Of a stretch of DNA of 64,000 nucleotides, positions 1,096 to 34,162 are shown piece after piece (the first letter of the stretch is position 1; the number at the start of each line of letters is the position of its first letter). The DNA comes from Acidocella aromatica (GTDB lineage: Bacteria; Pseudomonadota; Alphaproteobacteria; Acetobacterales; Acetobacteraceae): assembly GCF_014201825.1 (NCBI RefSeq), contig NZ_JACHFJ010000006.1, forward strand, positions 62,001-126,000, written 5' to 3'. The translations under genes were made by a program, and so were the position numbers. Below the pieces are notes generated by a model that worked only from the letters and a program-made list of their open reading frames with translations, did no database searches and was not told the origin of the DNA.

Positions 1096-1106
1096 ATCCG
1101 GCCCCC

Positions 1107-1421: not shown

Positions 1422-1447
1422 GGTTTCCTCCTGGTTTTTTCTTGTTT

Positions 1448-1783
1448 TCAGCTATGGGCGAAAAGCGGTGACACGCCTTCCACATCGACATAGAGATCAT
1501 CGCCCTCGGTTTTCACCGGATATTGGGCGAGGCGACAATCGCCGGGGTTGAGACCTTCGCCGGTATTCGCGTCGAAGGTCCACAGATGCGCGCGGCATGT
1601 CACCACGCGTCCGTCGAACTTGCCCTCGGAAAGCGGAATGTCCTGGTGCGGGCAGATGCCCTGATAGGCGCGCACCTCCCCGCCCTGGGGCCAGACCAAC
1701 AGGACCACATGGCCGTTGATCTCGACCTCAAGCATGTCGCCTTCCCAAAGATCATCCAGCGCACAGGCTTTTTCGAAACTCAT
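1448..1783 (-). CDS. tmoC: Rieske-type 2Fe-2S ferredoxin TmoC
   Basis: 111 residues. The Rieske ligands are visible as C44-P-H46 and C63-R-A-H66, in VCPHQ-like and TCRAHLW contexts. It shuttles electrons from the TmoF reductase to the diiron hydroxylase. An upstream in-frame extension to 1846 is rejected because it would overlap tmoB and make the protein longer than the ~112-residue family. The ATG at 1783 lies five bases after the tmoB stop, consistent with translational coupling. Confidence 0.92.
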   Translation of the reverse strand: MSFEKACALDDLWEGDMLEVEINGHVVLLVWPQGGEVRAYQGICPHQDIPLSEGKFDGRVVTCRAHLWTFDANTGEGLNPGDCRLAQYPVKTEGDDLYVDVEGVSPLFAHS

Positions 1784-1788
1784 GGGCC

Positions 1789-2049
1789 TTACTCCGCCGC
1801 GAAGATGAATTCGAGGGTCTCCATCGGCTGGACGGGCGTTTCGCACAGCTTAGCCGTGCGCGGGAAGAATTCCGTATCGCCCTGGCGCCGTACGCGGATC
1901 ACCTTATCCGGCTGCGGGGCGACGCGCCGCCCCACCGAATGATGCGCCGCCGCCGCCGCCACCTCGTCCATGGTGTTTTCGGTATCGACGGGCACGAGTT
2001 GCAGCACAAAATCGTACTGGAAGTTGGAGATGACTGGAAACAAAGCCAT
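1789..2049 (-). CDS. tmoB: Hydroxylase gamma subunit TmoB
   Basis: 86 residues, the size of the small gamma subunit of the toluene monooxygenase hydroxylase (ubiquitin-like fold in the family). It begins MALFPVISNFQYDFVLQLVP and ends with the METLEFIF segment common to TmoB proteins. The start at 2049 is one base after the tmoA stop; the longer in-frame reading to 2115 would run into tmoA and is rejected. Confidence 0.9.
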   Translation of the reverse strand: MALFPVISNFQYDFVLQLVPVDTENTMDEVAAAAAHHSVGRRVAPQPDKVIRVRRQGDTEFFPRTAKLCETPVQPMETLEFIFAAE

Positions 2050-2050
2050 T

Positions 2051-3556: not shown

Positions 3557-3630
3557 AGAATCCTCCTATTGTTTTCATAACGATTATTTCCCCTCGGACA
3601 TTTGTCTTGGTTGTTGTGCAGGGGAGAAAC

Positions 3631-3646
3631 AGCAAGCGCCGTGCCA
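3631..3646 (-). promoter_or_regulatory. Sigma-54 (-24/-12) promoter of the tmo operon
   Basis: The minus strand reads TGGCACGGCGCTTGCT, an excellent match to the sigma-54 consensus TGGCAC-N5-TTGCW with correct spacing. Transcription should start near 3620, giving a leader of about 65 bases before tmoA. Sigma-54 promoters with NtrC-family activators are the norm for aromatic monooxygenase operons (XylR, DmpR, TbuT types). No such activator gene is in the window. Confidence 0.82.
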
Positions 3647-3768
3647 TAAGGCGGCAAAGCGCCCGCTGCTGCGGCGCAACACGTTGCCAAGCCGGCGGTC
3701 TGGCTGGCTTTTTGGAAAAAACAGGAAAAATGCCGCTGCGCCGCACAATGATACGTCAGCGGTGGGAA

Positions 3769-3784
3769 GTGATCATTTGATCAA
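3769..3784 (-). promoter_or_regulatory. XylR/TouR-type upstream activator site
   Basis: The minus strand reads TTGATCAAATGATCAC, 14 of 16 matches to the palindromic activator site TTGATCAATTGATCAA known for the XylR/TouR/DmpR group. It lies about 125 bp upstream of the -24/-12 element, a normal distance for a DNA-looping enhancer site. In the 468-bp gap between tmoA and the ferredoxin gene only this site, the sigma-54 promoter and an AT-rich stretch near 3800-3850 stand out. Confidence 0.65.
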
Positions 3785-4024
3785 CACCGCCATCTCGGCA
3801 ATGTCGATGATTATCTCTATTTCGTAAAATATCGAAAAACGAATTCGCATGAGGCCATAGGTTTGTCGGACGGCTTGAAGCCGAGATTGACCAAGCATCT
3901 GCCCGAGACCGCCGGGTTCAAAAGGAGGGAGTGGTCGTTCCCATCGTTGGACGCACGAAGCTCCGGGGGAGCTCAACGCGCATTGCAATGGCTGCACAAA
4001 TGTCCGCAGTGCTACACTTCGTTC

Positions 4025-4342
4025 ATGCCACATATTCTCGTTACCACCCGTGATGGCCTGACGCATCAGGTTGAATACCTCCCCGGCCGTATTCTGACGG
4101 ACGCGCTACACGATGCCGGTCTCACCGAACTGCGCGCGCTTTGCGGCGGCTGCCTGACCTGCGCCACCTGCCACGTCTATGTCGATCCGTTGAGCTCCGC
4201 CTCACGCCCACCCTTCGGCGAGTTGGAGGGCGTTGTCATCGGCGGCCTGGCTGCCCCGCGCGAGAACTCCCGGCTGGCCTGCCAACTGGTGCTCACCGCA
4301 GCGCTGGACGGTCTTGCACTTACGATCCCGCCCGAAGGCTAG
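4025..4342 (+). CDS. Adrenodoxin-type 2Fe-2S ferredoxin
   Basis: 105 residues. The four cluster cysteines are C40, C46, C49 and C86, in the C-X5-C-X2-C-X36-C spacing of vertebrate/ISC-type ferredoxins. An additional cysteine (C43) sits inside the first loop, giving CGGCLTCATC. This type usually feeds electrons to monooxygenases or cytochrome P450s, so a role with the neighbouring oxygenase is possible, although TmoC already serves that complex. The in-frame reading can extend to 3863, but ATG at 4025 gives the family length. Divergent from tmoA. Confidence 0.85.
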   Translation: MPHILVTTRDGLTHQVEYLPGRILTDALHDAGLTELRALCGGCLTCATCHVYVDPLSSASRPPFGELEGVVIGGLAAPRENSRLACQLVLTAALDGLALTIPPEG

Positions 4343-4434
4343 GAGCCGCCACCATCATGGCGGTGTCCGCAGCATTCCATTCGCACGCAGGGGGTCATGC
4401 GGTGTATGGTCGGCGCGAGACTAGGAGGAACAGC

Positions 4435-6087
4435 ATGTCAGGCTATGCCACGCATGAGGTCCGCAACCAGCCGCCGCCGCTTGAAGACTTCAATGCCTGG
4501 GCTGCTGATTTACCGCTGCGGGAGGCAGTAACGGCATTTGGCGCCGGGTGGGCGGAGGCGCGTCTTGCGACATGCGGCGCACGCGTCGGCTCGGCGCATG
4601 TGCAAGCGCTGGCGCGGCTGGCCAACCGCTTCACCCCCGAGCTGCGCACACATGACCGCTACGGACACCGTATCGACGAGGTCGAATTCCACCCCGCCTG
4701 GCATGAGCTTCTCGGCATGTTGCGGGCCGACGAGGTTCACTCTTTGGGCTGGACTGAACCTCGCCCCGGCGCACAGGTGGCGCGCGCCGCCCTCTCGTAT
4801 CTTTGGGCTCAAGGCGAGGCAGGTATTGGCTGCCCGGCGGCGATGACCTTCGCCTCGATGGCGGCACTGCGCCATGCGCCAGATCTGCTGGACCGCTTCC
4901 AGGTCAAGATCCTGTCGCCGCTCTACGACCCGCGCGCCCTCCCACCAGCGCAGAAGCCCGCGCTCACGGTGGCCATGGCGATGACGGAAAAGCAAGGCGG
5001 CTCCGACCTTCGGCAGATACAGACCCAGGCAGCCCCCGCAGGCGGCGGCTGGTATGCGCTTACCGGCCATAAATGGTTCTTCTCGGTGCCGACGGCCGAC
5101 CTATTCCTCACGCTGGCACGCACCAAGGCGGGGCCAACCTGTTTTCTGGCGCAAGGGTGGCGCGACGGTGGCGGCCGCAATTTCCTGCTCCTGCAGCGCC
5201 TCAAGGAGAAATGCGGCAATCGCTCCAACGCCTCGTCGGAGGTTGAGTTCCGCGGGCTTCAGGCCCAGCCAATCGGCGAGGAAGGGCGTGGCATCGCCAC
5301 GATCCTGGAAATGGCCCACCTCACCCGCCTGGAATGCGCTCTGGGCAGCGCCGGGCTGATGCGTCAGGCACTGCGACTGGCACTGCACCATGCCAACCAC
5401 CGCACGGCGTTCGGCCGCCCCCTGGTGGAACAGCCCGCAATGACAAACGTGCTGGCGGATCTGGCGCTGGAGGCGGAGGCTGCCATGTGGCTGGCGCTGC
5501 GAGCGGCGGCCGCGCTCGATGCCAGCAGCCGCGACGAGGGCGAGCGGATCTTAAGCCGCCTTCTGGCGCCGCTCGCCAAATACTGGGTGTGCAAACGCGC
5601 GCCGGTGGCTGTGGCCGAGGCCTTGGAGTGCCATGGTGGCAACGGCTTCATCGAGGAGCATGATATCGCCCGCCTGTACCGTGACGCGCCGCTCAACGGA
5701 CTGTGGGAAGGCTCGGGCAATATCATTTGCCTGGACGTCATGCGCGCCCTTGCCCGCGTACCGGACAGTGCGGACTTGCTGCGTGCGGAAATCACCCGCG
5801 CCAGAGGGGCTCACCCCGCGCTGGACGCTTGGCTGGCTACCCCGCTGCCAGCGCCCGAGGAAAAAAACGCGCGCCTGCTTACCGAGCAGCTTGCTCTGGC
5901 ACTGGCCGCCAGCCTGTTGCTGCGGCACGCCCCCTCTTACATCGCCGCCGCCTATTGCGCGACGCGCCTGGGGCATGCCGGGGGATATGCTCCCGGCACA
6001 CTGCCAGCGGGCATCGACTGCGCCCCGATCGTCTCCCGCGCGGCACCAGCCGGCATGGGCGACGCCCATTTGGAAAAACGCGGCTGA
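4435..6087 (+). CDS. aidB: AidB-like acyl-CoA dehydrogenase
   Basis: 550 residues, near the 541 of E. coli AidB. Diagnostic stretches are AMAMTEKQGGSDLRQIQ, LTGHKWFFSVP, KCGNRSNASSEVEF and LWEGSGNIICLDVMRAL, all in the AidB order. AidB is a flavoprotein of the acyl-CoA dehydrogenase superfamily linked to protection from alkylating damage; it binds DNA and has weak isovaleryl-CoA dehydrogenase activity. AGGAGGAACAGC precedes the ATG, which fixes the start well inside a longer open frame from 4141. It follows the ferredoxin gene by 92 bp. A plausible link with epoxide or alkylating products of the monooxygenase is inference. Confidence 0.85.
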   Translation: MSGYATHEVRNQPPPLEDFNAWAADLPLREAVTAFGAGWAEARLATCGARVGSAHVQALARLANRFTPELRTHDRYGHRIDEVEFHPAWHELLGMLRADEVHSLGWTEPRPGAQVARAALSYLWAQGEAGIGCPAAMTFASMAALRHAPDLLDRFQVKILSPLYDPRALPPAQKPALTVAMAMTEKQGGSDLRQIQTQAAPAGGGWYALTGHKWFFSVPTADLFLTLARTKAGPTCFLAQGWRDGGGRNFLLLQRLKEKCGNRSNASSEVEFRGLQAQPIGEEGRGIATILEMAHLTRLECALGSAGLMRQALRLALHHANHRTAFGRPLVEQPAMTNVLADLALEAEAAMWLALRAAAALDASSRDEGERILSRLLAPLAKYWVCKRAPVAVAEALECHGGNGFIEEHDIARLYRDAPLNGLWEGSGNIICLDVMRALARVPDSADLLRAEITRARGAHPALDAWLATPLPAPEEKNARLLTEQLALALAASLLLRHAPSYIAAAYCATRLGHAGGYAPGTLPAGIDCAPIVSRAAPAGMGDAHLEKRG

Positions 6088-6319
6088 TCACGGCGCAATC
6101 AAGCGCCATGATGATGCCACCAACTGATATTACCGCGAGTTTACTGGCGGGTATTGCCAGGAAGCCAGTATAAAAACGCACTCGGTGAGTTGGGCCAGAA
6201 CCAATCATTCCTCTAACGCGTCGTGCAGATGAATACGCCATCTTGTGCATGCAAGCGAGCAGTGATCATTTCCTCACCCCGAAGCTGTTTGTTTTCAGCT
6301 AAAAAATCAGGAGGGAGTC

Positions 6320-6435
6320 ATGGAATTTGCTGCATGGCAAAAATTCATGCTGACACTGGGAAAGAGGCGATGGAAGCCGCCACGCATCTTTATGGCCACA
6401 ATGACAGCCCAGAATTGTGGCAGAAACTGAAGTAG
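6320..6435 (+). CDS. Possible small frameshifted gene (38 residues) before the phasin
   Basis: AGGAGGGAGTC precedes an ATG at 6320. The initial frame encodes MEFAAWQKFMLTLG and then becomes unnatural. In the -1 frame the sequence continues KEAMEAATHLYGHNDSPELW and so on to TAG at 6433. The switch coincides exactly with G GGA AAG (6358-6364), a slippery heptamer of the X XXY YYZ type. It may be a -1 frameshifted small protein, a broken gene or a sequencing error. The product is not recognised. The rest of the 6088-6510 gap shows nothing else clear. Confidence 0.3.
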
Positions 6436-6510
6436 ACAAAAAGAGCCGGCGTTCTGTACGCTTAAGTTTTTTACCAAGACCAAGTCTGGCAGCCAAGCGA
6501 GGAAGCTAAA

Positions 6511-6975
6511 ATGACTGACGTCACAATACAGAGAAGAACATCCGACTTTATAAACCAGCAAAGAGCAGGTGTTGAGATGCTCGCACACCCTCTATTCGAC
6601 GGCATCGAGCAAGCATTGAAATATCAGCATAACGGGTTGAAACAGTTAGAAGGGGTCGTCTCTGAGCATCTTGGACGGCGCCTCGAGGCATGTACGGCAA
6701 TGCAGCATCTTATCACGCGGATGCGAGATGAACGCGACCCGGCAAAAATTCTCGAGGCGCAGCGGGAATGGTTTTCCGGTGCGGTCGAGAGAATGACGGC
6801 TGATGCACTCGCATGGCAATCTGCGGGGGCGGCACTGCTCAAAAGCGCCAAATCTATGCCCGAATCAGGTTCGGCACAATATGCGCCCCCCAGAGAGAAG
6901 ACACAGGCACCTCGCGTTGACCCGGAGGCCGCCTCCCCCGCGCCCCTGCGGCGCAGCGATATCAAGGCGGGTTGA
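6511..6975 (+). CDS. Phasin-family protein
   Basis: 154 residues, helical and charged, with an amphipathic central region (residues 15-115: FINQQRAGVEMLAHPLFDGI onward) and a Pro/Ala-rich tail. Phasins coat polyhydroxybutyrate granules. The identification rests on composition and length and on the PHB depolymerase gene immediately downstream; no single diagnostic motif is visible. GAGGAAGCTAAA precedes the ATG. Confidence 0.65.
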   Translation: MTDVTIQRRTSDFINQQRAGVEMLAHPLFDGIEQALKYQHNGLKQLEGVVSEHLGRRLEACTAMQHLITRMRDERDPAKILEAQREWFSGAVERMTADALAWQSAGAALLKSAKSMPESGSAQYAPPREKTQAPRVDPEAASPAPLRRSDIKAG

Positions 6976-7042
6976 ACAAAAGTCTCTCACAACGGTTGTT
7001 GCAATGTGGTGGACTTTCTTGTCCGATCCCATCGCAAAACAA

Positions 7043-7068
7043 CCATGATGATAACGTTATCATCATGG
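7043..7068. promoter_or_regulatory. 26-bp perfect palindrome upstream of phaZ
   Basis: The 26 bases are a perfect dyad with no spacer; the left half is CCATGATGATAAC. It ends one base before the AGGAGGT ribosome-binding sequence (7070-7076). Its length and symmetry suggest an operator for a dimeric repressor, or an mRNA hairpin beside the ribosome-binding site. The cognate protein is not identifiable from the window. Confidence 0.7.
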
Positions 7069-7087
7069 CAGGAGGTGGCATGAACAA

Positions 7088-8449
7088 GTGGCACTGAAAG
7101 CAACAGAGCGGCGTTCCAACGTCCTTCATCAGCCCTTGGACAGAGGCATGGTCATCGGTGAATTTTGCAGCGGCGCGGGTGGACATGTCACCCTCGGTCT
7201 ATCGCGTGCAGCACCTGCCTACTGGCTCTACGAGATGGCTCACGCGGCAATTCGCCCGGCCCGCGCCTTTGTCGACGTCAGCAGGCTGCTCTTCGAAAAT
7301 TCGGCCAATCCACTCGCCGAGAGCCCTTTCGGCAAATCGCTTCTTGCCGCAGGCGAATTGTTCGAGCGGACGACACGCCGCTTTGCTAAGCCGGAATGGA
7401 ATATAAACTCCACCATCGTCGATGGAGACGTTGTCCCGGTGCAAATCTCCTGCCTGTGGGAGCGGCCGTTCTGCCGCCTTTTACATTTCCGAAGGGCGGT
7501 CGAATATTCGCGGCTTACCGTAGACCCATGCTTACTGATCGTCGCTCCAATGTCCGGCCATTATCCAACGCTGCTGCGAGGAACGGTTCAGGCATTCCTG
7601 CCCAGCCATGACGTCTACATTACCGAATGGGTCGATGCGCGGGCGGTTCCTCTTATCGAAGGCTGCTTCGATCTTGATGACTATATCGACTACGTCATCG
7701 ATATGTTGCATCTGTTCAACGGCGATGTCCATGTCCTGGCCGTTTGCCAGGCTGCGGTTCCGGTCCTGGCAGCCGTTGCGCTGATGGATGCCGACGATCA
7801 TCCTGACATTCCCCGCTCGATGACCCTGATGGGCGGCCCGATTGATACACGGATTAATCCCAGTGTCATCAATAAACTCGCCGAGAGACGCGGTATCGAC
7901 TGGTTCCGCCAGAATGTTATCACACGAGTGCCATTCCCGAATCCTGGCGCCTTGCGGGAGGTTTATCCTGGTTTCCTGCAGCTCTATGGTTTCATGGTGA
8001 TGAACCTGAGCCGTCACATGGAGGAGCACTTCAAACTTTTTCAGCATCTTATCCATGGCGACGGCGATTCCGCCCAGCGGCATCGCGACTTTTACGATGA
8101 ATATCTCGCGGTGGCCGATCTCTGCGCCGAGTTCTACCTCCAGACATGCGATACGGTTTTTATTCGCCACGCTCTGCCAAAAGGCGAGATGACACACCGC
8201 TCCCGTCCAGTCGATCCTGCGCAAATCCGGCATGTGGCGCTTATGACGATCGAAGGAGAACACGATGACATTTGCGGTGTTGGCCAGACTTCGGCCGCGC
8301 TGCGGCTATGCGCGAATCTCCCGGCGAGCCACAAAAAACATTGGTTGCAGCTTGGCGTTGGTCATTACGGCGTGTTCAACGGCGCACGCTTCCGCGCCGA
8401 GATTGTACCACGTGTTAGAGACTTTATCCTCGAAAACGACCATGGCTAG
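7088..8449 (+). CDS. phaZ: Intracellular polyhydroxybutyrate depolymerase PhaZ
   Basis: Up to 453 residues, cytoplasmic alpha/beta hydrolase. The nucleophile region is HVLAVCQAAVPVLAA with C220 as likely catalytic cysteine, and the late GVGHYGVFNG supplies the histidine; this is the Cys-type PhaZ1 pattern. It degrades stored PHB. The family usually begins near YWLYEMAHAAIRPARA, which is residue 45 here, so the GTG start used (7088) gives an unusual N-terminal extension. An ATG at 7080 has the best-spaced ribosome-binding sequence but opens a frame of only five codons overlapping the GTG. The true start is uncertain. Its 3' end overlaps cydC's by four bases. Confidence 0.85.
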   Translation: MALKATERRSNVLHQPLDRGMVIGEFCSGAGGHVTLGLSRAAPAYWLYEMAHAAIRPARAFVDVSRLLFENSANPLAESPFGKSLLAAGELFERTTRRFAKPEWNINSTIVDGDVVPVQISCLWERPFCRLLHFRRAVEYSRLTVDPCLLIVAPMSGHYPTLLRGTVQAFLPSHDVYITEWVDARAVPLIEGCFDLDDYIDYVIDMLHLFNGDVHVLAVCQAAVPVLAAVALMDADDHPDIPRSMTLMGGPIDTRINPSVINKLAERRGIDWFRQNVITRVPFPNPGALREVYPGFLQLYGFMVMNLSRHMEEHFKLFQHLIHGDGDSAQRHRDFYDEYLAVADLCAEFYLQTCDTVFIRHALPKGEMTHRSRPVDPAQIRHVALMTIEGEHDDICGVGQTSAALRLCANLPASHKKHWLQLGVGHYGVFNGARFRAEIVPRVRDFILENDHG

Positions 8450-23635: not shown

Positions 23636-24523
23636 TTACGCTTTGCCCTCGCGGATGAGCTTCAGCAGCGCCGCCACCGCACGGGAGCGGTAACGCTCCA
23701 CATGCTGGACAGCATTGAACTCCCGGCCCGGAAGTGTGACACCGACCTTGACGAGCCGCCCCGCCGCGAGGCTTTCGGCACAGACCAGCGAGGACAACGC
23801 CGCCGGACCGGCTCCGCCTTCAGCCGCCGCACGCACAGCTTCGTTCGAGGGCAAGGCAATGGCGATACGTAAATCCTCATGCGCCAGGCCGAGGGCATGC
23901 AACGCTTCGGTAAATACCGCGCGCGTGCCGGAGCCGTCTTCGCGCAGCACCCAGCTTGCCTCGGCCAACGCCGCTGGCGACAAGGACATCTTTCCAGCCC
24001 AGGGATGCCCTGGTGAGACCACGACGATCATCTGATCGGTGCCAACGAGTTCCGTCGCCAACTGCGGGTGGCTGACCGGGCCTTCCACAAACCCAAGCTC
24101 GGCATCGCCCTGGGCAACGGCGCGCACGACCTGCGCCGTGTTGCCAACCGCAACTGATAATTCAATCCCGGGAAATCTGGCGTGAAACCGAACCAGCCAG
24201 TCGGGCAGAAAGTAGCTGGCAATGGTCTGGCTGGCATGAATGGTCAGACGCCCGCGCGCCATCCCTGAAAATTCCGCCATGGCCGCCTCGGCCGAGTGCA
24301 CGCGGGCGAGAATGGCTTTCGCCTCGTTGAAAAAGCAACGCCCCGCCTCCGTAAGCGTGATGTTACGCCCGACACGGTGGAACAGCTTCAGCCCGAATTG
24401 CTGTTCGAGGGCCGAGATCGCAGACGATGCGGCGGATTGCGTCAGATTTAGCGCTTCCGCCGCGCGCGTGACATGCTCGCGCTCGGCTACGGCGGCGAAA
24501 ATCCTCAGCTGTTCAAACGTCAT
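23636..24523 (-). CDS. LysR-family transcriptional regulator
   Basis: 295 residues: N-terminal winged HTH (MTFEQLRIFAAVAEREHVTR, then SAASSAISALEQQFGLKLF) and a periplasmic-binding-like effector domain. The effector part resembles the CysB/CbbR/YeiE side of the family (TIASYFLPDWLVRFHARFPG). ATG at 24523 is preferred over the longer frame from 24544. Its upstream region now abuts the transposon at 24612; without the insertion it would face the TDT transporter gene, its likely target. Confidence 0.85.
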   Translation of the reverse strand: MTFEQLRIFAAVAEREHVTRAAEALNLTQSAASSAISALEQQFGLKLFHRVGRNITLTEAGRCFFNEAKAILARVHSAEAAMAEFSGMARGRLTIHASQTIASYFLPDWLVRFHARFPGIELSVAVGNTAQVVRAVAQGDAELGFVEGPVSHPQLATELVGTDQMIVVVSPGHPWAGKMSLSPAALAEASWVLREDGSGTRAVFTEALHALGLAHEDLRIAIALPSNEAVRAAAEGGAGPAALSSLVCAESLAAGRLVKVGVTLPGREFNAVQHVERYRSRAVAALLKLIREGKA

Positions 24524-24611
24524 GCGCCGCCATGCTCCTGCCACAGGACATCAGGAAATATTACACAAATCAATAATCCAGACAGATCGTTTTGAGAAGA
24601 ACAATCAATTA

Positions 24612-24619
24612 CTAAAATG
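24612..24619. repeat. Target-site duplication, left copy (CTAAAATG)
   Basis: The 8 bp CTAAAATG directly precede the left terminal repeat and recur exactly after the right one at 32711-32718. Eight AT-rich bases is the duplication size known for ISL3-family elements. Confidence 0.85.
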
Positions 24620-24647
24620 GGCTATTTGCATTCTGAGGGTGGAATCG
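24620..24647 (+). repeat. Left terminal inverted repeat of the ISL3-family transposon
   Basis: Begins GGCTATTTGCA and ends GGAATCG. Ungapped, 23 of 28 bases match the complement of 32683-32710; one gap improves it. Confidence 0.85.
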
Positions 24648-24666
24648 TAAAACCGTCACTTAGCCC

Positions 24667-24733
24667 GTTTCGTGCATAACTTGGTTGACTGGCACTACAA
24701 TTCTGGTATGCTGTTTCGTGCATAACTTGGTTG
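24667..24733 (+). repeat. Two 21-bp direct repeats flanking the hsd promoter
   Basis: Identical 21-mers beginning GTTTCGTGCATAACTTGG lie at 24667-24687 and 24713-24733, 46 bp apart. The first touches the -35 and the second starts right after the -10, as expected for a pair of operator sites. The binding protein is unknown; no controller gene is in the element. Confidence 0.8.
24685..24712 (+). promoter_or_regulatory. Sigma-70-like promoter of hsdMSR-tnp
   Basis: TTGACT, 16-bp spacer, TATGCT. A start near 24719 would give a leader of about 24 bases to the hsdM ATG. Confidence 0.65.
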
Positions 24734-24742
24734 GAGCGTGAA

Positions 24743-26761
24743 ATGGCAGAGTTGGCAGGTTCGGCGGCATCACTTGCGGATTTCATTTGGAAAAACGCCG
24801 AAGACTTATGGGGTGACTTCAAGCACACCGACTTTGGCAAGATCATCCTGCCATTCACATTGCTTCGCCGTCTGGAATGCGTACTGGAGGCGACTCGACA
24901 GGATGTCCGTGACGCTCATGTCGCGCATAAGGAATCCGGCATCGACATAGACCTGATCCTGCGCCAGACCACGCGCTACCCGTTCTACAACACGTCCGAG
25001 TATGAATTGAGTACGCTGGGCGGCAACAAGACCCGGCAAAACCTCCAGGACTACATCGCGCACTTCTCGGACAACGCTCGCGTCATCTTCGAGCAGTTCG
25101 ACTTCTCCAATACCGTGATCCGGCTCGATAAGGCCGGCGTGCTGTACAAGATTTGCAAGAACTTCGCCGGCGTCGATCTGCATCCTGACGCGGTGCCGGA
25201 TCGGGTCATGAGCAACCTCTACGAGCACTTGATCCGTCGCTTTGGTGCCGAGGTCAATGAAGGCGCTGAAGACTTCATGACACCCCGCGACGTGGTGCAT
25301 CTCGCCACCGCGCTCCTGCTTGACCCGGATGACGCCCTGTTCGAGGCCAATCCCGGCCTGATCCGCACCCTATACGACCCCACCTGCGGCACGGGCGGCT
25401 TTCTTTCCGACGCCATGAATCACGTTGCCGAATACGGCACTCGATTCAAGGTGCCGCCAGTGTTGATCCCTTACGGGCAGGAACTGGAACCTGAAACCCA
25501 TGCCGTCTGCCTGACTGGCATGCTTCTACGTACTCTAGAGTCCGATCCTGGCAGGGACTTGTCCAAGAACATCAAGCTTGGCAGCACCCTGTCCAACGAT
25601 CAGTTCGCTGGAGAGCGATTCCATTATGGACTTTCCAATCCGCCCTTCGGCAAGAAGTGGGAGAAAGATGCGGCGGCCATCAATGCAGAGCATGCCGAGA
25701 AGGGCTACGATGGGCGCTTCGGGCCTGGTTTACCGCGCATCAATGACGGCTCCATGCTGTTCCTCCTTCACTTGGCCAGCAAGCTGGAGCTGCGTGAAAA
25801 CGGCGGAGGACGGGCGGCGATCGTTCTGTCCGGCTCTCCCCTCTTCAATGGCGGGGCTGGATCTGGGGAGTCAGAAATTCGCCGTTGGCTTTTGGAGCAC
25901 GATCTGGTCGACGTAATCGTGGCGTTGCCTACGGAAATCTTCTTCCGGACTGGCATCGGCACGTATCTTTGGGTGCTTTCCAACAAGAAGCCTGAGCATC
26001 GCCGAGGCAAGGTGCAACTGATCAACGCGACCAGTCTGTGGACCTCGATCAAGAATGAGGGAAATAAGCGGCGGGCGATCAGTGACGATCAGTTGCGGCA
26101 GGTATTGGAAGTGTACGGGTCGACAGAGGACAGCGAATTCAGCCGAATGGTCGATTATCGAGTCTTCGGCTATCGGCGCATCAAGGTCCTTCGTCCGTTG
26201 CGGATGGCTCTCCACATCAACGAGGAAACGCTGGCCAAACTAAATGATGAAAAAGCCTTGGCCAAATTCTCGGACGCGCAGCGGGAGATATGGACGGAAG
26301 CCTTGCAGCCATATCTTGGCACCATTCAGCAGGTGTCCTGGGCGGAGTCTTTCGCGGCTGTAGTCGCTCGCACGTCACCCGTTGTCGGCAAGGTCGCAAA
26401 GCCGATCCTCAAGGCAATGGTCAATGCTTTCGGTACGCGTGATCCGGAAGGTGAACCGGTACTAGACGCTGATGGTGAAACAGTTTCAGATCCCGATCTG
26501 ACGGATTATGAGAATGTGCCACTTCTGGATGACGTCGATGAGTACCTGGCATGCGAGGTACTTCCACATGTCGAAGACGCCTATATCGACCTCAGCTTTC
26601 GTGACAATAAAGACGGTGAAGTTGGCCGGGTCGGCTATGAGATCAATTTCAATAGGTTCTTCTACAAATACGTCCCACCGCGCGCCCTGCGTGAAATCGA
26701 TGCCGATCTGAAGGCGGTCGAAGCGGACATCGCTGATTTGCTCAACGAGGTCACGGAATGA
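24743..26761 (+). CDS. hsdM: Type I restriction-modification methyltransferase subunit HsdM
   Basis: 672 residues. N-terminal helical HsdM domain (DFIWKNAEDLWGDF onward), SAM motif I DPTCGTGGFL at 212-221 and catalytic NPPF at 299-302, marking an N6-adenine methyltransferase. A long C-terminal part (about 460-672) interacts with HsdS in relatives. Together two HsdM and one HsdS methylate the recognition site. GGAG lies six bases before ATG; the in-frame TTG at 24731 is less likely. Overlaps hsdS by four bases. Confidence 0.95.
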   Translation: MAELAGSAASLADFIWKNAEDLWGDFKHTDFGKIILPFTLLRRLECVLEATRQDVRDAHVAHKESGIDIDLILRQTTRYPFYNTSEYELSTLGGNKTRQNLQDYIAHFSDNARVIFEQFDFSNTVIRLDKAGVLYKICKNFAGVDLHPDAVPDRVMSNLYEHLIRRFGAEVNEGAEDFMTPRDVVHLATALLLDPDDALFEANPGLIRTLYDPTCGTGGFLSDAMNHVAEYGTRFKVPPVLIPYGQELEPETHAVCLTGMLLRTLESDPGRDLSKNIKLGSTLSNDQFAGERFHYGLSNPPFGKKWEKDAAAINAEHAEKGYDGRFGPGLPRINDGSMLFLLHLASKLELRENGGGRAAIVLSGSPLFNGGAGSGESEIRRWLLEHDLVDVIVALPTEIFFRTGIGTYLWVLSNKKPEHRRGKVQLINATSLWTSIKNEGNKRRAISDDQLRQVLEVYGSTEDSEFSRMVDYRVFGYRRIKVLRPLRMALHINEETLAKLNDEKALAKFSDAQREIWTEALQPYLGTIQQVSWAESFAAVVARTSPVVGKVAKPILKAMVNAFGTRDPEGEPVLDADGETVSDPDLTDYENVPLLDDVDEYLACEVLPHVEDAYIDLSFRDNKDGEVGRVGYEINFNRFFYKYVPPRALREIDADLKAVEADIADLLNEVTE

Positions 26762-28002
26762 GCCACTACAAGCCATATCCGGCCTACAAGGATTCCGGCG
26801 TCGACTGGATCGGGAATATGCCGCAGCACTGGGGCGTCAAGCCTATCAAGGTAATCGCCTCTTGCAATGACGACAGCCTGCCGGAGGCAATACCATTGGA
26901 CATGCCGATTCGCTATGTCGATATCTCCGCAGTTAGCCACGATGGAGGTATTTCCGGCGCGGAGCCGATGGTATTTGGAGAAGCGCCTTCCCGCGCACGT
27001 CGCATGGCCAAGCTCGGCGATGTGGTCGTGTCTACCGTTAGGACATACTTGAAGGCGGTGGCGTCCGTTGATGAGGCGCACGCTGATTGCGTATATTCGA
27101 CAGGATTTGCCGTTCTGCGCGCCCGCAGCGAGCAATTGGCTCCTGAGTTCCTCAAGTGGCTGGCGCTCAATGACTTGCTCATCCAAGCCGTTGAGTCACA
27201 TTCCGAGGGGCTCAGTTATCCGGCGATCAATTCATCGGATCTGGTAAACCTCAAGGCAGTGGTGCCGGGATTGCCTGAACAAAAGCGCATTGCTGCAATT
27301 CTTGACCGCGAAACCGCCCGCATCGACGCGCTTATCGCGAAGAAAACGGAATTCATCGAACTCCTTAAGAAAAAGATTGCCGCTTTGGCTTCTCAACCTC
27401 CGGATTCGCCCAATCTCAAGTGGGTTCGACTTTCACATGTCTGTGAGGTAGTTTCGCGCCCAGTGCTCCAGCAAGTTGGTAGTAGCTACACAAAACTTGG
27501 ACTGTTCAATAGAGGGCGCGGAATTTTCAAACGGGACGAAACCGATACCGAAGATATGGGCGATTCTGAATTCTTTTGGATTCAGCCTGGCGACTTGATC
27601 CTTAGCGGTCAGTTCGCATGGGAGGGAGCAGTAGCATTGGCAAATGAAGATCATGCCGGATGCGTTGTCTCTCATCGTTTCCCCGTCATCAGAGGGCGCA
27701 ATAATGAAGCGCTTACCGAATACCTGCTCGCCTACTTCTTGACCGCCCACGGTGATTTTGTGCTGAACGACTGCTCCCGTGGTTCAGCCGGGCGCAACCG
27801 CCCCCTGAACATGAACCTGTTGCTAGGGTGGAAAATTCCAATTCCGGCGATGCCGATCCAATGTGAGATTGCACGGCTCGTTCAACTGGAAAGGCGAATC
27901 GGGGAAAGGGTAAGCAAGAGCATTACTCTCCTAAAAGAGCGGCGTTCCGCCTTCATCACCGCTGCCGTCACAGGCCAAATCGACCTCCGGGGATCACCAT
28001 GA
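26758..28002 (+). CDS. hsdS: Type I restriction-modification specificity subunit HsdS
   Basis: 414 residues in two target-recognition halves. Each half ends with a conserved coiled-coil spacer: PGLPEQKRIAAILDRETARI near 172-191 and the helix around ARLVQLERRIGERVSKSITL near 375-395; it ends FITAAVTGQIDLRG, a common HsdS tail. The DNA target cannot be deduced. The start overlaps the hsdM stop as ATGA, and its end overlaps hsdR. Intact, with no recombination cassettes or repeats seen that would allow specificity switching. Confidence 0.94.
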   Translation: MSHYKPYPAYKDSGVDWIGNMPQHWGVKPIKVIASCNDDSLPEAIPLDMPIRYVDISAVSHDGGISGAEPMVFGEAPSRARRMAKLGDVVVSTVRTYLKAVASVDEAHADCVYSTGFAVLRARSEQLAPEFLKWLALNDLLIQAVESHSEGLSYPAINSSDLVNLKAVVPGLPEQKRIAAILDRETARIDALIAKKTEFIELLKKKIAALASQPPDSPNLKWVRLSHVCEVVSRPVLQQVGSSYTKLGLFNRGRGIFKRDETDTEDMGDSEFFWIQPGDLILSGQFAWEGAVALANEDHAGCVVSHRFPVIRGRNNEALTEYLLAYFLTAHGDFVLNDCSRGSAGRNRPLNMNLLLGWKIPIPAMPIQCEIARLVQLERRIGERVSKSITLLKERRSAFITAAVTGQIDLRGSP

Positions 28003-31000
28003 GCGACACCGCCCATCAAGAAAAGCACTTTGAAGCCTATGTCGTTTCCAAGCTGGAGGCTCAAGGCTGGAAGGTCGGTAACACGCTTCAATATGATACT
28101 GAGCGCGCGCTTTATGCGGACGATCTCATCGCATGGCTAGAGGCTACCCAGCCAGAGAAGTGGACCAAGCTCCAGAAGGACAACGGCGAGCGTGCCCGAG
28201 ACATATTGATGGACCGGCTGGCCAAGGCACTGGAACAACACGGCACCATGCATGTCATCCGCAATGGATTCTCGATTGCGGGTTGCGGCCATATCGACCT
28301 CACCGAAGCGGCCCCGGAAGACAAGCGCAACGACAAGGTATTGAAGCGCTACGCGGCCAATATCCTGCGCGTGGTGCCGCAGCTTGAATACCACCCAACC
28401 CGCAAGCTGGCGATTGACCTGGTGCTGTTCATCAACGGCATCCCGGTCGCTACCGTGGAACTGAAGACCGACTTCACTCAGTCCGCAGAAGCGGCGATGG
28501 AGCAGTACAAGACCGACCGGCTGCCGTATGACCCCAAGACCAAGCGCCGCGAGCCACTGCTGACCTTCAAACGGGGCGCCGTGGTCCATTTCGCCATGTC
28601 CGATTCCGACATCCAGATGGCGACCAAGCTTGATGGCGAGAACACCACCTTCCTGCCGTTCAACCAGGGCAATGACGGCCATGCCGGCAACCCACCGCGC
28701 GAAGACAAGGAATACCCGGTCGCGTACTTCTGGGAGTCGATCTGCCAGCGGGATGCCTGGCTGCGCATCTTCCACAGCTTCGTCTATGTGGAAAAGAAGG
28801 ATGTCGTCGACCTGAAAGGCAACTGGTCCAAGAAGGAAACCCTGATCTTCCCGCGCTACCACCAGTGGGAATCGGTCAACGCCATGATCGCTGACTCCCG
28901 CGCCAATGGCCCTGGTATGCAGTATCTAGCAGACCAAAGTGCCGGCTCAGGAAAGACCAGTACGATTTCATGGATGGCCCATGATCTGGTCAAGCTGCGC
29001 CGGGACAATGGCGAGGCAATCTTCAACAGCGTCATCATCGTCACCGACCGAAACGTGCTGGACAGCCAGCTTCAGGATGCGGTCAAGCAGATCGATCATC
29101 AGTTCGGGGTGATCGCCGCCATCGACCGCCAGAAATCATCCAAGTCGAAAAGCAAGCAATTGGCGGAAGCGCTGCTGGCCAACACGCCGATTATCGTGGT
29201 CACTATCCAGACCTTCCCCTACGCGATGGAAGCTATCGTCACGGAGAAATCCCTGAAGGACAAGAGCTTTGCGGTGATCATCGATGAGGCGCATGCCTCG
29301 CAAACGGGATCGACGGCTGCCAAACTCCAGACGGCACTCTCCATGAGCGGCAAGGGCAAGATGTCCACGCTGACCGTGGAAGAACTGCTGGAAGAATTGC
29401 AAAAGTCGCGGGCACGGCCGAAGAACATTAGCTACTTCGCCTTTACAGGCACGCCTAAGCATTCCACGCTCATGCTGTTCGGCCGTCCGGCTGATCCGTC
29501 ACGCCCGGCCTCCAAGACCAACCTGCCGGAGCCGTTCCGACGGTATCCCATGCGCCAGGCCATCGAAGAGGGCTTCATTCTCGATGTGCTCAAGGGCTAC
29601 GTGCCCTACAAGACCGCTTTCAATCTTGCTAAGCAGATTGGTGATAGAAAGCGTGTCAGCGGCAAACATGCCAAACGGGCACTGGCACAGTGGATGTCCT
29701 TGCACCCGACCAATGTAACCCAGAAAGTACAGTTCATTATCGAGCATTTCCATAAGAACGTGGAATATCGCCTGGATGGCAAGGCTAAGGCGATGGTTGT
29801 CACCAGTTCTCGTGCCGCGGCCGTGCGCTACAAGAAAGGGTTCGACAAGTACATTGAGAAACACCCGGAATACGCCGGCATTCACTCGCTGGTGGCCTTC
29901 TCCGGCAAGCTGACCGGCAAGCAGGTCATGCACTCCGATGATGAACGCATCGCCGGTGAGGTCTTCGTGGTTGACGAGATTGAGGAATTCACCGAGGTCA
30001 GCATGAATCCCGGTGTGACCCAGGATTTGCGGCTAGCCTTCGAGCGTCCGGAATATCGGGTGATGCTGGTAGCCGACAAGTTCCAGACCGGCTTTGATCA
30101 GCCAAAACTTGTTGCGATGTACGTGGACAAGAAGATCGCCAACGACGTGGAAATCGTTCAGACCTTCTCGCGACTGAACCGCATCGCCCCCGGTAAGGAT
30201 GAAATCTTCATCATTGATTTCGTCAACGATCCCGCCAATGTGCGGCGGGCATTCGCCATGTACGACGATGGCGCCCAGATCGACGACATGCAAGACCTGA
30301 ACGTGGTCTACGAGATCAAGGAATCGCTCGATGGCCAGGGGCTATACGAGGCGGAAGACCTTGCTGCCTTCAAGGAAGCTCGCTTCAAGACCATTCGTGA
30401 CATCACCCAGGCGCAGGAGCCGCAGCACAAGGCGCTCTATGCCGCCACGGAGCGGCCAACGCGACTGTTCAATCAACGCCTGAAGATGCTGCGCGAAGCG
30501 GTGAATACGTGGGAATCCGCGTATGAGAAGGCGCACAGACAAGGCGACCAGGCAGGCATGAAGACGGCCGATCATCACCGCCGGGAGCATGCGGACCAGA
30601 TCAAGAGCATCATGACGTTCAAGTCCGGTCTGGGCCGCTTCTGCCGCACGTACGCCTATATCGCCCAGTTGATCGACTTCGGCGATCCTGAACTGGAAAA
30701 TTATGCCTCGTTCGCCAAGCTGCTCCAGAAGCGGCTTAATGGTGAACCACCGGAGAGCGTCGACCTCAAGGGGCTCGTGCTGACTGGGTTCGACATCAAA
30801 GGTAAGGACGATGCCGCTGGTGACGAAGATGAGCCTCCGGTATTGAAGCCTGTCGGCCCCGGCACAGGCGGCGGAAAAAGTGACGATCCGCACTACCTTA
30901 ACGAAATTATCGACCGACTGAACCACCTGTTTGGTGATGCGACTCCGCTGCGTGACCAAGCGACTTTCGTCAATCACATCGTCTCGATTGCTCGTGAAAA

Positions 31001-31226
31001 CGATGTCGTGATGGCGCAGGTGGAAAACAACTCCCGCGAGCAGGCACTGAAGGGAAACTTGCCCGGAGCGGTGCAGCAGGGAGTGGTTCGAGCGCTGACA
31101 TCCCATCAAAAACTGGCGACCTTGGTGCTGAAGTCCGACCGCCAAGCCATGTCCGGCCTGACCGACGTAATTTACGAGTTGATCAGGGAGCGCCGCGACA
31201 TCGATTTGGACGACATCGGTGCTTGA
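27999..31226 (+). CDS. hsdR: Type I restriction endonuclease/translocase subunit HsdR
   Basis: 1075 residues. N-terminal nuclease with D140 and E154-L-K156 (PD-(D/E)XK pattern), then superfamily 2 motor: Walker A in DQSAGSGKTSTISWM, DEAH in VIIDEAHASQTG, motif III FAFTGTPKH and motif VI around QTFSRLNRIAPG. A C-terminal helical region (about 800-1075) binds the methyltransferase. It translocates and cuts unmodified DNA. All motor and nuclease motifs are intact, so the system looks functional. Its last eight bases overlap the transposase start. Confidence 0.95.
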   Translation: MSDTAHQEKHFEAYVVSKLEAQGWKVGNTLQYDTERALYADDLIAWLEATQPEKWTKLQKDNGERARDILMDRLAKALEQHGTMHVIRNGFSIAGCGHIDLTEAAPEDKRNDKVLKRYAANILRVVPQLEYHPTRKLAIDLVLFINGIPVATVELKTDFTQSAEAAMEQYKTDRLPYDPKTKRREPLLTFKRGAVVHFAMSDSDIQMATKLDGENTTFLPFNQGNDGHAGNPPREDKEYPVAYFWESICQRDAWLRIFHSFVYVEKKDVVDLKGNWSKKETLIFPRYHQWESVNAMIADSRANGPGMQYLADQSAGSGKTSTISWMAHDLVKLRRDNGEAIFNSVIIVTDRNVLDSQLQDAVKQIDHQFGVIAAIDRQKSSKSKSKQLAEALLANTPIIVVTIQTFPYAMEAIVTEKSLKDKSFAVIIDEAHASQTGSTAAKLQTALSMSGKGKMSTLTVEELLEELQKSRARPKNISYFAFTGTPKHSTLMLFGRPADPSRPASKTNLPEPFRRYPMRQAIEEGFILDVLKGYVPYKTAFNLAKQIGDRKRVSGKHAKRALAQWMSLHPTNVTQKVQFIIEHFHKNVEYRLDGKAKAMVVTSSRAAAVRYKKGFDKYIEKHPEYAGIHSLVAFSGKLTGKQVMHSDDERIAGEVFVVDEIEEFTEVSMNPGVTQDLRLAFERPEYRVMLVADKFQTGFDQPKLVAMYVDKKIANDVEIVQTFSRLNRIAPGKDEIFIIDFVNDPANVRRAFAMYDDGAQIDDMQDLNVVYEIKESLDGQGLYEAEDLAAFKEARFKTIRDITQAQEPQHKALYAATERPTRLFNQRLKMLREAVNTWESAYEKAHRQGDQAGMKTADHHRREHADQIKSIMTFKSGLGRFCRTYAYIAQLIDFGDPELENYASFAKLLQKRLNGEPPESVDLKGLVLTGFDIKGKDDAAGDEDEPPVLKPVGPGTGGGKSDDPHYLNEIIDRLNHLFGDATPLRDQATFVNHIVSIARENDVVMAQVENNSREQALKGNLPGAVQQGVVRALTSHQKLATLVLKSDRQAMSGLTDVIYELIRERRDIDLDDIGA

Positions 31227-32499
31227 TCTACTGAATCTTCCGGGCGTTGTTCCTGTCGATCTTCGTACAGGCAACAAGTGCATCATCGTTGTCGCCAACG
31301 TGGACGATGGTGATTTGCAGCAATGCCCTGATTGCAACAAACCCATGTACCGGCATGGACGCAGAACGAATGTGTTCGCAGATACGCCGATGCAAATGCA
31401 GCCGGTACGTTTGGAAATCTCCCGGCCACGCTATCGCTGCACAAGCTGCGGAGCAATGGTCACCCCTGAATTGACGTTTCTGGATGAAAAGCGCCGGGCG
31501 ACAAAACGGTTGGTGGACGCCATTCGGGAGCGCTGCCTTGGAATGACCTTCCATGCGCTCGCCGAGCAAACCGGTTTGGCAGTCAATACCATCAAGAGCA
31601 TCGCCCAAGACTTGATCGCGGATTTGGAGCGCACGGTTCTCTATGAAACGCCCGTCATCATGGGTATCGATGAAGTCAATCTGGCAGGTGAGATGCGGTG
31701 CGTCATCACCAATCTAGCGACGAACAACGCCTTTCAGATGCTTGAGTTTCGGACCCAAGAGCATCTGAAGCCATTCTTCAAGAACCTGCCCGACAGGGAA
31801 AAGGTGGAATGGGTCTGCACGGACATGTGGCGGCCGTTCAAGCGATCATTCAGCAAATACTTGCCCAATGCTCGCCTGGTCATCGACAAGTTCCATGTGG
31901 TTGCAATGGCATCAGAAGCGCTGGAAACGGTGCGCAAGAAGCACCAAGCTACGCTGGACAAGACGGAACGTATCAAGGTCAAGAAGTCGATCCGGTGGCT
32001 TACCTTGAAGCGACCCCACAACCTCTCGTCGGCCGAAGTTGAAGCGTTGGCGGTTGTCCGGCAAGTGATCCCTGACCTTGCTTTGGCCTATGACTTCAAG
32101 GAGGCTTTCTACCGAATTTACGATGATCCGGTCAAGGAGTCGGCCATGCGGGCGTTCGAGGCTTGGGAAAACTCATTGCCGGATGAGCTAGATGGTTTCC
32201 GTAGTCTGGCCAAGACAGTCCACAATCATTATGACGACATCTTTGCCTACTGGGACTCGCCAAGCCGAATCACGAACGCATACACAGAAGGCTTGAATGG
32301 GCTGACCAAGGTCGCTAACCGCATGGGGCGGGGATATAGCTACGAGATCATTCGGGCGAAGATGCTGTATGCCAAGTATGCACGGAGGGTCGGGAGCGGT
32401 GTTCGAGTAGCGGAGAAGACGGGCGGCTCTGAAACCGTCGAGTACGGCCCGCATATTCCAACCTTGGTTGAGATGGCGGAATCTGGTGGCCTGGATTAG
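31219..32499 (+). CDS. ISL3-family transposase
   Basis: 426 residues. N-terminal zinc finger C36-X2-C39 ... C74-X2-C77, a helix-turn-helix near 103-130 (GMTFHALAEQTGLAVNTIKS) and a DDE catalytic core with D151 (GIDEVN), D202 (CTDMW) and E357 (TNAYTEGLNG). Start is GTG inside the hsdR end, so translation is coupled to hsdR. Intact, and flanked by matching terminal repeats, so the element is probably active or recently so. Confidence 0.94.
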   Translation: MLDLLNLPGVVPVDLRTGNKCIIVVANVDDGDLQQCPDCNKPMYRHGRRTNVFADTPMQMQPVRLEISRPRYRCTSCGAMVTPELTFLDEKRRATKRLVDAIRERCLGMTFHALAEQTGLAVNTIKSIAQDLIADLERTVLYETPVIMGIDEVNLAGEMRCVITNLATNNAFQMLEFRTQEHLKPFFKNLPDREKVEWVCTDMWRPFKRSFSKYLPNARLVIDKFHVVAMASEALETVRKKHQATLDKTERIKVKKSIRWLTLKRPHNLSSAEVEALAVVRQVIPDLALAYDFKEAFYRIYDDPVKESAMRAFEAWENSLPDELDGFRSLAKTVHNHYDDIFAYWDSPSRITNAYTEGLNGLTKVANRMGRGYSYEIIRAKMLYAKYARRVGSGVRVAEKTGGSETVEYGPHIPTLVEMAESGGLD

Positions 32500-32584
32500 G
32501 CGGCGATAAGAGTTCCTACCTCGCTTCGCTGCGGGATCGAGCCGAGGCTGCGTTTTATTGGAAAACCGGGCCATATGGACATGA

Positions 32585-32693
32585 ATTCCAACCAACAACA
32601 CCTTGCGTTTGATCTGGCTTGATTGGCAATTTCCAACCAGCAGGCTGGCAGAACTTCAGGCCGATTCAACTGCAAAATTGCTCGATTCCAACC
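32585..32693. repeat. Three subterminal repeats at the right transposon end
   Basis: ATTCCAACC at 32585-32593, TTTCCAACC at 32630-32638 and ATTCCAACC at 32685-32693 (the last inside the terminal repeat). They may be extra transposase contacts. The 32500-32584 stretch holds nothing else visible. Confidence 0.5.
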
Positions 32694-32710
32694 CTAGTTT
32701 GCAAATAGCC
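32683..32710 (-). repeat. Right terminal inverted repeat of the ISL3-family transposon
   Basis: Read inward on the minus strand it begins GGCTATTTGCA and ends GGAATCG, matching the left terminus at 23 of 28 positions. Confidence 0.85.
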
Positions 32711-32718
32711 CTAAAATG
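32711..32718. repeat. Target-site duplication, right copy (CTAAAATG)
   Basis: Exact copy of the 8 bp at 24612-24619, directly outside the right terminal repeat. Confidence 0.85.
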
Positions 32719-32773: not shown

Positions 32774-32983
32774 ACGCCAGACATCCGTGACACCTTGCCG
32801 CTCCCCTCACCGCTCCTCAAGTGTAAACAACCCATTGGCAGGGGGCACGGCGCGTTGCGCGCCATATTCCCACCGCCCAAAAATCATCAATTTTAAAAAT
32901 GATAACAAGAGATACAATCCATTATACAAATGGCTTTATACTCTCTAGATCTCCGCCCAGCCACCGGCAGAAAGGATCAGGTC

Positions 32984-34162
32984 ATGTTCGGTATCAGCAG
33001 ACCCTTTGCCCATCACGACCATCCGAGCGAGATCGTCCGGCAATTCACGCCGAACTGGTTCACCGTGACGATGGGAACCGGCGTCTTGGCTCTGGCGCTC
33101 AACCAGTTTCCGCTGGCGCAACCGGCGCTGCACAGGCTGGGGGCGATCATCTGGCAGGCGAATATCGGTCTCTTCACCCTTTGCACCGTTCTGTATGTGG
33201 CGCGCTGGATCTTCTACCCCCATTCAGCGGTAAAGATCTTCAGCCATCCGGTCATGCCGATGTTCCTCGGCGCGATCCCGATGGGGCTTGCGACTATCGT
33301 CAACGGCTTCCTCGCCTTTGGCATCGGCGCCTATGGGGCGCAGGCGATCGCCATCGCCCAGGCTTTATGGTGGGTGGATGCCGGGCTTGCCGCCGGCATC
33401 GGGCTGCTGGTGCCGTACATGATGTTCACGCGGCAGGAACACAGCATCGAAAACATGACCGCCGTCTGGCTGCTGCCGATCGTGGCCTGCGAAGTGACCT
33501 CGGCAAGCGGCGGGCTGCTCGCGCCGCACTTGGCGGACCACATCGCCGCCGCGCATCTGCTGTTCACCTGTTATCTGTTCTGGGCGCTCTCGGTGCCGCT
33601 GGCCATGGGTATTCTGGTCATCCTGTTCCTGCGCCTGGTGCTGCATAAGCTGCCGCGGCGGGATATGGCGGTTTCCACATGGCTGGCCCTGGGCCCGCTT
33701 GGCACCGGCGCCCTGGCGCTGCTTGTGCTGGGGCATGACGCCCCGTCCATTCTGGGCGCTGTCGGCATGGCGGACATCGGCACCGTGGCGCAGGGGATCG
33801 GCCTGATCGGCGGGCTGGTGATCTGGGGTTACGGCGCTTGGTGGCTCGTGATGGCCGTGGCCATAACCTTCTCCTATCTGCGCGAGGGACTGCCCTTCAA
33901 CATGGGCTGGTGGGGCTTCACCTTCCCGCTGGGTGTGTTCACTCTGGCGACATTGAGCCTAGGGGGGCAGACCGGCATGAGCTTCTTCACCGTCCTCGGG
34001 GCAGTGCTGGTCGTCGCCCTCGTGGGGTTCTGGCTGATCGTCGCTACCCAGACCTTCATCGGCGCTTACAAGGGACATCTGTTCGCCGCCCCCTGCCTGA
34101 ACAGCGCTTCCAGACTCTCAAAGGAAACAGGGCTGCCGGCAGCAACGGCCTCCGCGCGTTGA
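32984..34162 (+). CDS. TDT-family transporter (TehA/sulfite exporter-like)
   Basis: 392 residues, about ten transmembrane helices. FTPNWFTVTMGTGVLALAL at residues ~21-39 is the family signature of TehA/Ssu1-type anion channels and exporters, and SYLREGLPFNMGWWGFTFPLGVF the later one. Substrates in the family include sulfite, malate and tellurite-linked anions; nearby sulfide-oxidation genes make sulfite plausible. AAGGA eight bases before ATG at 32984 decides the start; the longer frame from 32930 is rejected. Probably regulated by the LysR protein now separated from it by the transposon. Confidence 0.82.
   Translation: MFGISRPFAHHDHPSEIVRQFTPNWFTVTMGTGVLALALNQFPLAQPALHRLGAIIWQANIGLFTLCTVLYVARWIFYPHSAVKIFSHPVMPMFLGAIPMGLATIVNGFLAFGIGAYGAQAIAIAQALWWVDAGLAAGIGLLVPYMMFTRQEHSIENMTAVWLLPIVACEVTSASGGLLAPHLADHIAAAHLLFTCYLFWALSVPLAMGILVILFLRLVLHKLPRRDMAVSTWLALGPLGTGALALLVLGHDAPSILGAVGMADIGTVAQGIGLIGGLVIWGYGAWWLVMAVAITFSYLREGLPFNMGWWGFTFPLGVFTLATLSLGGQTGMSFFTVLGAVLVVALVGFWLIVATQTFIGAYKGHLFAAPCLNSASRLSKETGLPAATASAR

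Follow-up and report, generated by a model that had tools for sequence, protein, structure and literature searches.

The window analyzed here is a stretch of 64,000 nucleotides from an Acidocella aromatica contig (NZ_JACHFJ010000006.1, positions 62,001 to 126,000), and between positions 24620 and 32710 it contains an 8,091-bp element that combines type I restriction-modification (RM) genes with an ISL3-family transposase gene. The element lies between two copies of CTAAAATG, a perfect 8-bp target-site duplication (24612-24619 on the left and 32711-32718 on the right). Its terminal inverted repeats, at 24620-24647 on the plus strand and 32683-32710 on the minus strand, agree at 23 of 28 positions and form part of a 29-nt, 83% inverted repeat (24619-24647 paired with 32683-32711), the longest in the region. 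An initial annotation, made from the sequence alone, had described an 8.1-kb element with such repeats and a perfect duplication, and the same figures were recovered here. Among 150 random pairs of 200-base stretches taken 8 kb apart in the same window, no perfect 8-bp repeat had beside it a match better than 13 of 24 bases; the element reaches 19 of 24, and chance repeats were accordingly rejected as an explanation of the ends and the duplication. The G+C content of the element is 55.7%, versus 62.7% in the remaining window.

Four genes on the plus strand occupy the space between the ends, and all four reading frames are open. The first, hsdM (24743-26761), encodes a type I methyltransferase with Pfam domains HsdM_N and N6_Mtase (PADLOC MTase_I, 807.6 bits). 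It is followed by the specificity subunit gene hsdS (26758-28002; two Methylase_S stretches in Pfam, PADLOC Specificity_I) and by hsdR (27999-31226), whose product, the restriction and translocation subunit, matches HSDR_N, SWI2_SNF2 and a T1R_D3-like domain. The last gene, tnp (31219-32499), encodes the DDE transposase and starts with a GTG codon inside hsdR. Successive genes overlap by 4, 4 and 8 bases, in agreement with the order and the 4-8 base overlaps given in the initial annotation. Each Hsd protein has the domains expected of a type I RM system, and the NCBIfam equivalog cut-offs are reached neither by hsdM (70.4 of 242.75 bits) nor by hsdR (150.9 of 284.55 bits). By eye, the DPTCGTGGF and NPPF motifs of HsdM and the D...ELK, SAGSGKT and DEAH motifs of HsdR, which we take to be the catalytic ones, appear intact. 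The transposase carries the ISL3 zinc ribbon, HTH and DDE domains (Pfam PF01610, PF13542 and PF14690), and its residues D151, D223 and E357 are invariant in six aligned sequences, in line with the earlier impression of intact catalytic motifs. The element probably encodes a working type I enzyme.

Assignment to ISL3 follows from the transposase, which scores 311.2 bits against NCBIfam transpos_ISL3 (cut-off 180), and from the terminal repeats beginning with GG and the 8-bp duplication, which we take to be features of this family. The ISL3 rows of PMC6305408 also show 8-bp duplications and GG ends. The ends, the domains and the gene overlaps together back the description of an ISL3 transposon in which a complete hsdMSR set and the transposase gene form a single transcription unit. 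The initial annotation had also suggested that this combination might be new, and that suggestion is not supported: hsdM, hsdS, hsdR and tnp are also the genes of ISKpn25, a named ISL3 element whose hsdM has been termed a passenger gene (PMC8796155, PMC5142620). Since the window element has the same four genes in the same order inside its ends, it almost certainly is a transposon of the ISKpn25 type, and very probably a complete one that is likely to be mobile.

The published ISKpn25 is 8,154 bp long, with frames at 107-2161, 2158-3474, 3475-6732 and 6737-8005 (PMC8796155); the table in that paper apparently swaps some function codes, the first frame being coded as a transposase. A Klebsiella plasmid locus, L014, measures exactly 8,154 bp end to end, and its annotated hsdS, hsdR and tnp coincide with the last three published frames. 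The ISKpn25 of L014 and the window element share the gene order, ends beginning GGCTATTTGCATTCT, an 8-bp duplication, similar lengths and two end-like sites ahead of hsdM. They differ in sequence (transposase 72%, HsdR 76% and hsdS 28% identical), in the hsdR-tnp gap (+4 in ISKpn25, -8 here) and in setting, the one copy being on a resistance plasmid and the other on a genome contig. Copies of the same named element share about 95% identity. At 72% in the transposase, the window element is, judged by these identities, a diverged new element of an already published kind. An entrapment plasmid in E. coli captured ISKpn25 seven times, and an 8-bp duplication accompanied each insertion (PMC8768599).

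Plasmid searches return further ISL3 elements annotated as ISKpn25, ISSm4 or simply ISL3, and all five plasmid regions that we opened contain hsdM, an hsdS-like gene, hsdR and tnp. An element annotated in RefSeq as ISSm4 (L013) resembles the window element in these genes, in the -8 junction and in a perfect duplication, with transposase and HsdR 78% and 84% identical, but it is 9,109 bp long, and its hsdM and hsdS are separated by an additional gene for a PDDEXK nuclease. Elements of the ISPpu12 and ISPst2 types likewise place an ISL3 transposase last, after passenger genes, and have one internal end-like copy by the left end; in contrast, their passengers are of metal or transporter type with no restriction genes, and their transposases are about 33-34% identical. 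Tn3-family transposons with toxin-antitoxin genes also tie a host-affecting gene pair, proposed to be regulatory, to a transposition module (PMC7157771), but the transposase family and the passenger type are unrelated, so the likeness is an analogy only. In the open-licence literature, judged by title and start of abstract and with subscription journals and ISfinder outside this scope, we found no paper on the whole lineage, on the promoter-flanking sites or on the extra cargo described below.

A scan of a species-genome collection with the transposase alignment, which used two peptide seeds and is not a census, yielded 44 loci at 56-94% transposase identity. Their sources are alpha-, beta- and gammaproteobacteria together with metagenome bins whose labels (Acidobacteria, Holophagaceae, Campylobacterales and Neomarinimicrobiota) may be in error. 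Five loci do not enter the count of adjoining genes: in L051, L054, L057 and L058 the transposase start is missing at or near a contig edge, and in L056 the start of hsdM is joined to the end of tnp. The hsdR-tnp junction, which the initial annotation had pointed to as a mark to look for in other genomes, recurs in all of the rest, with hsdR upstream of tnp and adjoining it or nearly so in 39/39 loci with a complete transposase start. The gap lies between -8 and +10 bases in 37 of these (-8 in 19, -4 in two, +2 in one, +4 in 11, +8 in one and +10 in three). The remaining two are L032 (+413) and L031, where the computed value of 1373 is an artefact of an hsdR split into two aligned pieces, the second of which ends beside tnp. 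Two metagenome-bin loci, L052 and L053, have a common frameshift at transposase residue 242, either inherited damage or a programmed shift.

Pairwise distances of Tnp, HsdR and HsdM correlate (r 0.95 for Tnp and HsdR, then 0.946 and 0.973; 37 sequences for Tnp and HsdR, 26 for HsdM), with none of 2000 permutations as high. HsdS distances (24 sequences) follow the other three weakly, with r 0.286, 0.326 and 0.342 and with 4, 0 and 0 of 2000 permutations as high; HsdS is thus largely, but not wholly, decoupled from Tnp, HsdR and HsdM. As these loci had been collected by way of the transposase, a converse search was begun from HsdR. On plasmids, where 60 of 1,825 records were taken at even steps (again not a census), the identity of near-complete HsdR matches drops from 57.6% to 39.8%. 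An ISL3 gene adjoins hsdR in 4/4 fetched plasmid matches at 57-75% identity and in both viral-contig matches, and none stands beside hsdR in the 39.8%-identity plasmid match. Among 384 other genomes of the class, 20 contain a total of 24 HsdR loci at no more than 45% identity, and no transposase was present in the stretch viewed at these. In a Serratia plasmid (L112, 694-1725), an ISEc33 insertion splits the hsdS of an ISKpn25-type element.

The same ends do occur in other elements, as would not be expected of a chance match, and the duplications there differ, a comparison that the initial annotation had proposed. Perfect 8-bp duplications surround 23 elements, 22 besides that of the window; all 23 are different, and most are A+T-rich. 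They comprise 16 of a first set of 21 elements (window included), 5/5 elements with distant right ends and the left end in view, and 2/2 elements on contigs filed as viral. The distant ends come from 14 of 50 loci in which no right end was found within 700 bases of tnp; a whole-locus scan located nine of these further downstream, the five with a left end in view all being perfectly duplicated, and left L016, L017, L042, L053 and L057 with no right end in view. The pattern search yielded no pair of ends in L111. The two viral-contig elements, L109 and L110, are ISKpn25-like, with duplications CTTTTTTT and TAAATATT; the HsdM of L110 aligns as two pieces.

In the leader between the left end and hsdM, two 21-nt direct repeats, site 1 at 24667-24687 and site 2 at 24713-24733 (both plus strand), are copies of the terminal-repeat core TGCA-N6-GGTTG in left-end orientation, as seen in an alignment of 21 left ends, with the cores at 24673-24687 and 24719-24733. 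Between them lies a promoter-like site, TTGACT-16-TATGCT (24685-24712, plus strand). Its -35 box starts at 24685 with the last bases of site 1, and its -10 box ends at 24712, immediately before site 2, which extends to the ribosome-binding site of hsdM (ATG at 24743). By eye, the promoter is placed similarly in aligned relatives. Exact core copies in the first 21 elements number 42 between left end and hsdM and seven elsewhere on both strands, compared to 1.4 expected at random, and the two sites are 46 bases apart in 17 of the 20 elements with at least two copies. With eight more elements added, 26/29 have at least two exact copies in this interval; L109, L110 and L111 were read separately, and two sites are present in L110 and L111. 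The core motif search singled out the two sites. Simply counting the matches to the ends of the element concerned did so in L045, L048 and L050 but not in the window or L014 (five tried). We also considered the repeats as recognition sites of the RM enzyme and rejected this, since the sites stay alike whereas HsdS differs.

This arrangement suggests how mobility and restriction may be linked. The transposase must bind the ends, and end-like sites stand at the promoter, so the simplest reading is that it binds there as well and represses the operon; we give repression of hsdM-hsdS-hsdR-tnp by the transposase slightly less than an even chance. In such a model, the DDE transposase would move the DNA lying between the two ends, and the type I enzyme would methylate the host and restrict incoming unmethylated DNA, favoring cells that keep the element. 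The gene order would put modification ahead of restriction, with the transposase as the final product of the operon. By binding the two end-like sites around the promoter, the transposase would then repress the whole operon, and entry into a new cell would set off a burst of modification, restriction and transposition followed by self-shutdown. The most likely reading overall is that the element is a self-mobile restriction module whose modification, restriction and transposase genes are predicted to share one promoter and perhaps one repressor. For co-regulation of mobility and restriction, which the initial annotation had put forward, the support is architectural.

Several observations weigh against this reading. 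In the control region, one exact site is present in L026 and L037 and none in L047 (the leader of L037 is shorter by 46 bases, as might follow from recombination between the two repeats), and L109, on a contig filed as viral, has one. A matrix built from the ends only scores site 1 of the window low (-0.9) and site 2 moderately (6.9). Promoter-like matches in the region do not exceed those in shuffled sequence, which makes the promoter scan alone uninformative, and the elements counted are related, so the counts are not independent. As to mobility, five of the first 21 elements (L010, L022, L024, L026 and L027) have no perfect duplication in register, one of which, L022, shows a duplication after a one-base shift. 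A 1.58-kb internal-deletion copy (L056, 86-1669), with the start of hsdM fused to the end of tnp and both ends kept, has no matching 8-bp duplication. The transposase is single-copy in its own genome, by genome search, and weak relatives occur in 6 of the 99 other genomes in the kinship sample (25-30% identity, plus one 54-residue piece at 38%); this host thus shows no visible sign of recent movement. Finally, in two ISL3 outgroups, the ISPpu12-like L081 and the ISPst2-like L083, one internal end-like copy lies at 57 and 55 bases, away from any promoter.

The outgroups bear on an alternative in which the internal sites are extra transposase-binding sites for assembly of the transposition complex at the left end, with no significance in their placement at the promoter, and the operon is weak and constitutive. 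The single copies at a similar distance in transposons with about 33-34% identical transposases count in its favor. A caveat to this comparison is that the outgroup ends were taken from pairs matching at 21/24 and 20/24 with no duplication (3/8), that those of L083 are the second-scoring pair, chosen for its fit to the ISPst2 repeats and length in PMC6305408, and that a third outgroup, L082, was dropped for lack of clear ends. Against it, neither L081 nor L083 has an evident counterpart of site 2. In the ISKpn25-type elements, site 2 follows the -10 box and precedes the start codon, at the recurrent 46-base spacing, and site 1 contains the -35 box in aligned relatives by eye. We regard this alternative as possible but would not favor it.

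The host locus bears on a different alternative, in which the element would be an inactive relic, fixed in place and used by its host today like any chromosomal restriction system. The flanking genes, named by eye, are a LysR-type gene (23636-24544, minus strand) and a TDT-type transporter gene (32930-34162). The transporter is present in 25/38 genomes of the genus, its own genome counted, and in 17 of 19 other genus loci fetched the LysR gene directly adjoins it with no element; the case that would have undermined the initial annotation, hsdMSR at this locus without the terminal repeats, was not found. The empty-site comparison was possible on one side. In the relative G012, with flanks 86-88% identical, the LysR flank runs uninterrupted through the target stretch, which reads ATTAAAATA in place of CTAAAATG; on the right, about 3 kb of other genes precede the transporter, so that the junction could not be compared base by base and the insertion is not the sole difference at the locus. 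By eye, these 3 kb (L079) hold a substrate-binding-protein-like and a DoxD-like gene. Congeners without the element at the locus indicate that the insertion is young on the genus scale, which, with four open frames and both ends and a perfect duplication retained, makes a relic unlikely, despite the single copy and the lack of a close transposase in the 99 other genomes.

Insertion sequences are often found near restriction genes, but the idea that an ISL3 element landed by chance alongside a resident hsdMSR locus is highly improbable and was rejected, given ends that enclose all four genes, the recurrent hsdR-tnp junction and the Tnp-HsdR distance correlation.

Returning to the self-mobile module, some relatives of the element carry more than the four core genes, including defence-like ones. 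Extra genes fill 33 gap regions (32 loci), most of which lie between hsdM and hsdR. Their protein clusters include eight of YhcG/DUF1016 type and three of GmrSD type, and other representatives scanned match RhuM, RhuM-Fic, AbiD/Abi_2, PIN, RlaP and Schlafen-type families, with no Pfam match at E 0.01 for 9 of the 20 gap proteins scanned. A second slot lies between tnp and the right end (L018, L019, L020, L029, L030, L036, L037, L043 and L052). In L036 it holds ThsB and a caspase, and a perfect duplication surrounds the whole. With the right end alone in view, L020 has a CBASS cyclase with a 4TM effector, L029 a GajA-GajB pair (Gabija), L030 RmrA-like and PIN genes, and L043 the candidate defence family PDC-S54. 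Large proteins of about 600-1100 amino acids with no Pfam match fill the slot in L018 and L052 and, as one protein beside a transposase-like gene, in L019, while L037 carries metabolic genes (aldo/keto reductase and GST). L042 has an OLD-like gene after tnp, with no right end in view. The window element carries none of this extra cargo.

A further-reaching reading, to which we give somewhat less than an even chance, places the element in an old lineage of self-mobile carriers of defence genes. Its transposase would be the master repressor acting through paired end-like operators, and hsdS and the cargo, in as many as three slots, would be exchanged while transposase, HsdM and HsdR are kept together. 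Restriction systems often move between bacteria by a vehicle that is often unclear; here, vehicle and system form one unit, kept together in relatives whose transposase and HsdR are each as little as about 56% identical, so that mobility, immunity and control can be studied in a single 8-kb piece. If the transposase does repress the operon, this would explain in concrete terms how a restriction system can establish itself after arriving in an unmethylated cell. With CBASS, Gabija or ThsB-caspase genes in some relatives, the same ends seem to carry a broader range of defence cargo. The ISKpn25 precedent answers much of the initial surprise at such an element, and the conserved control region offers a sharp, testable hypothesis.

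Elsewhere in the window, two minus-strand genes at 109-3556 resemble, by eye, subunits of a soluble di-iron monooxygenase.

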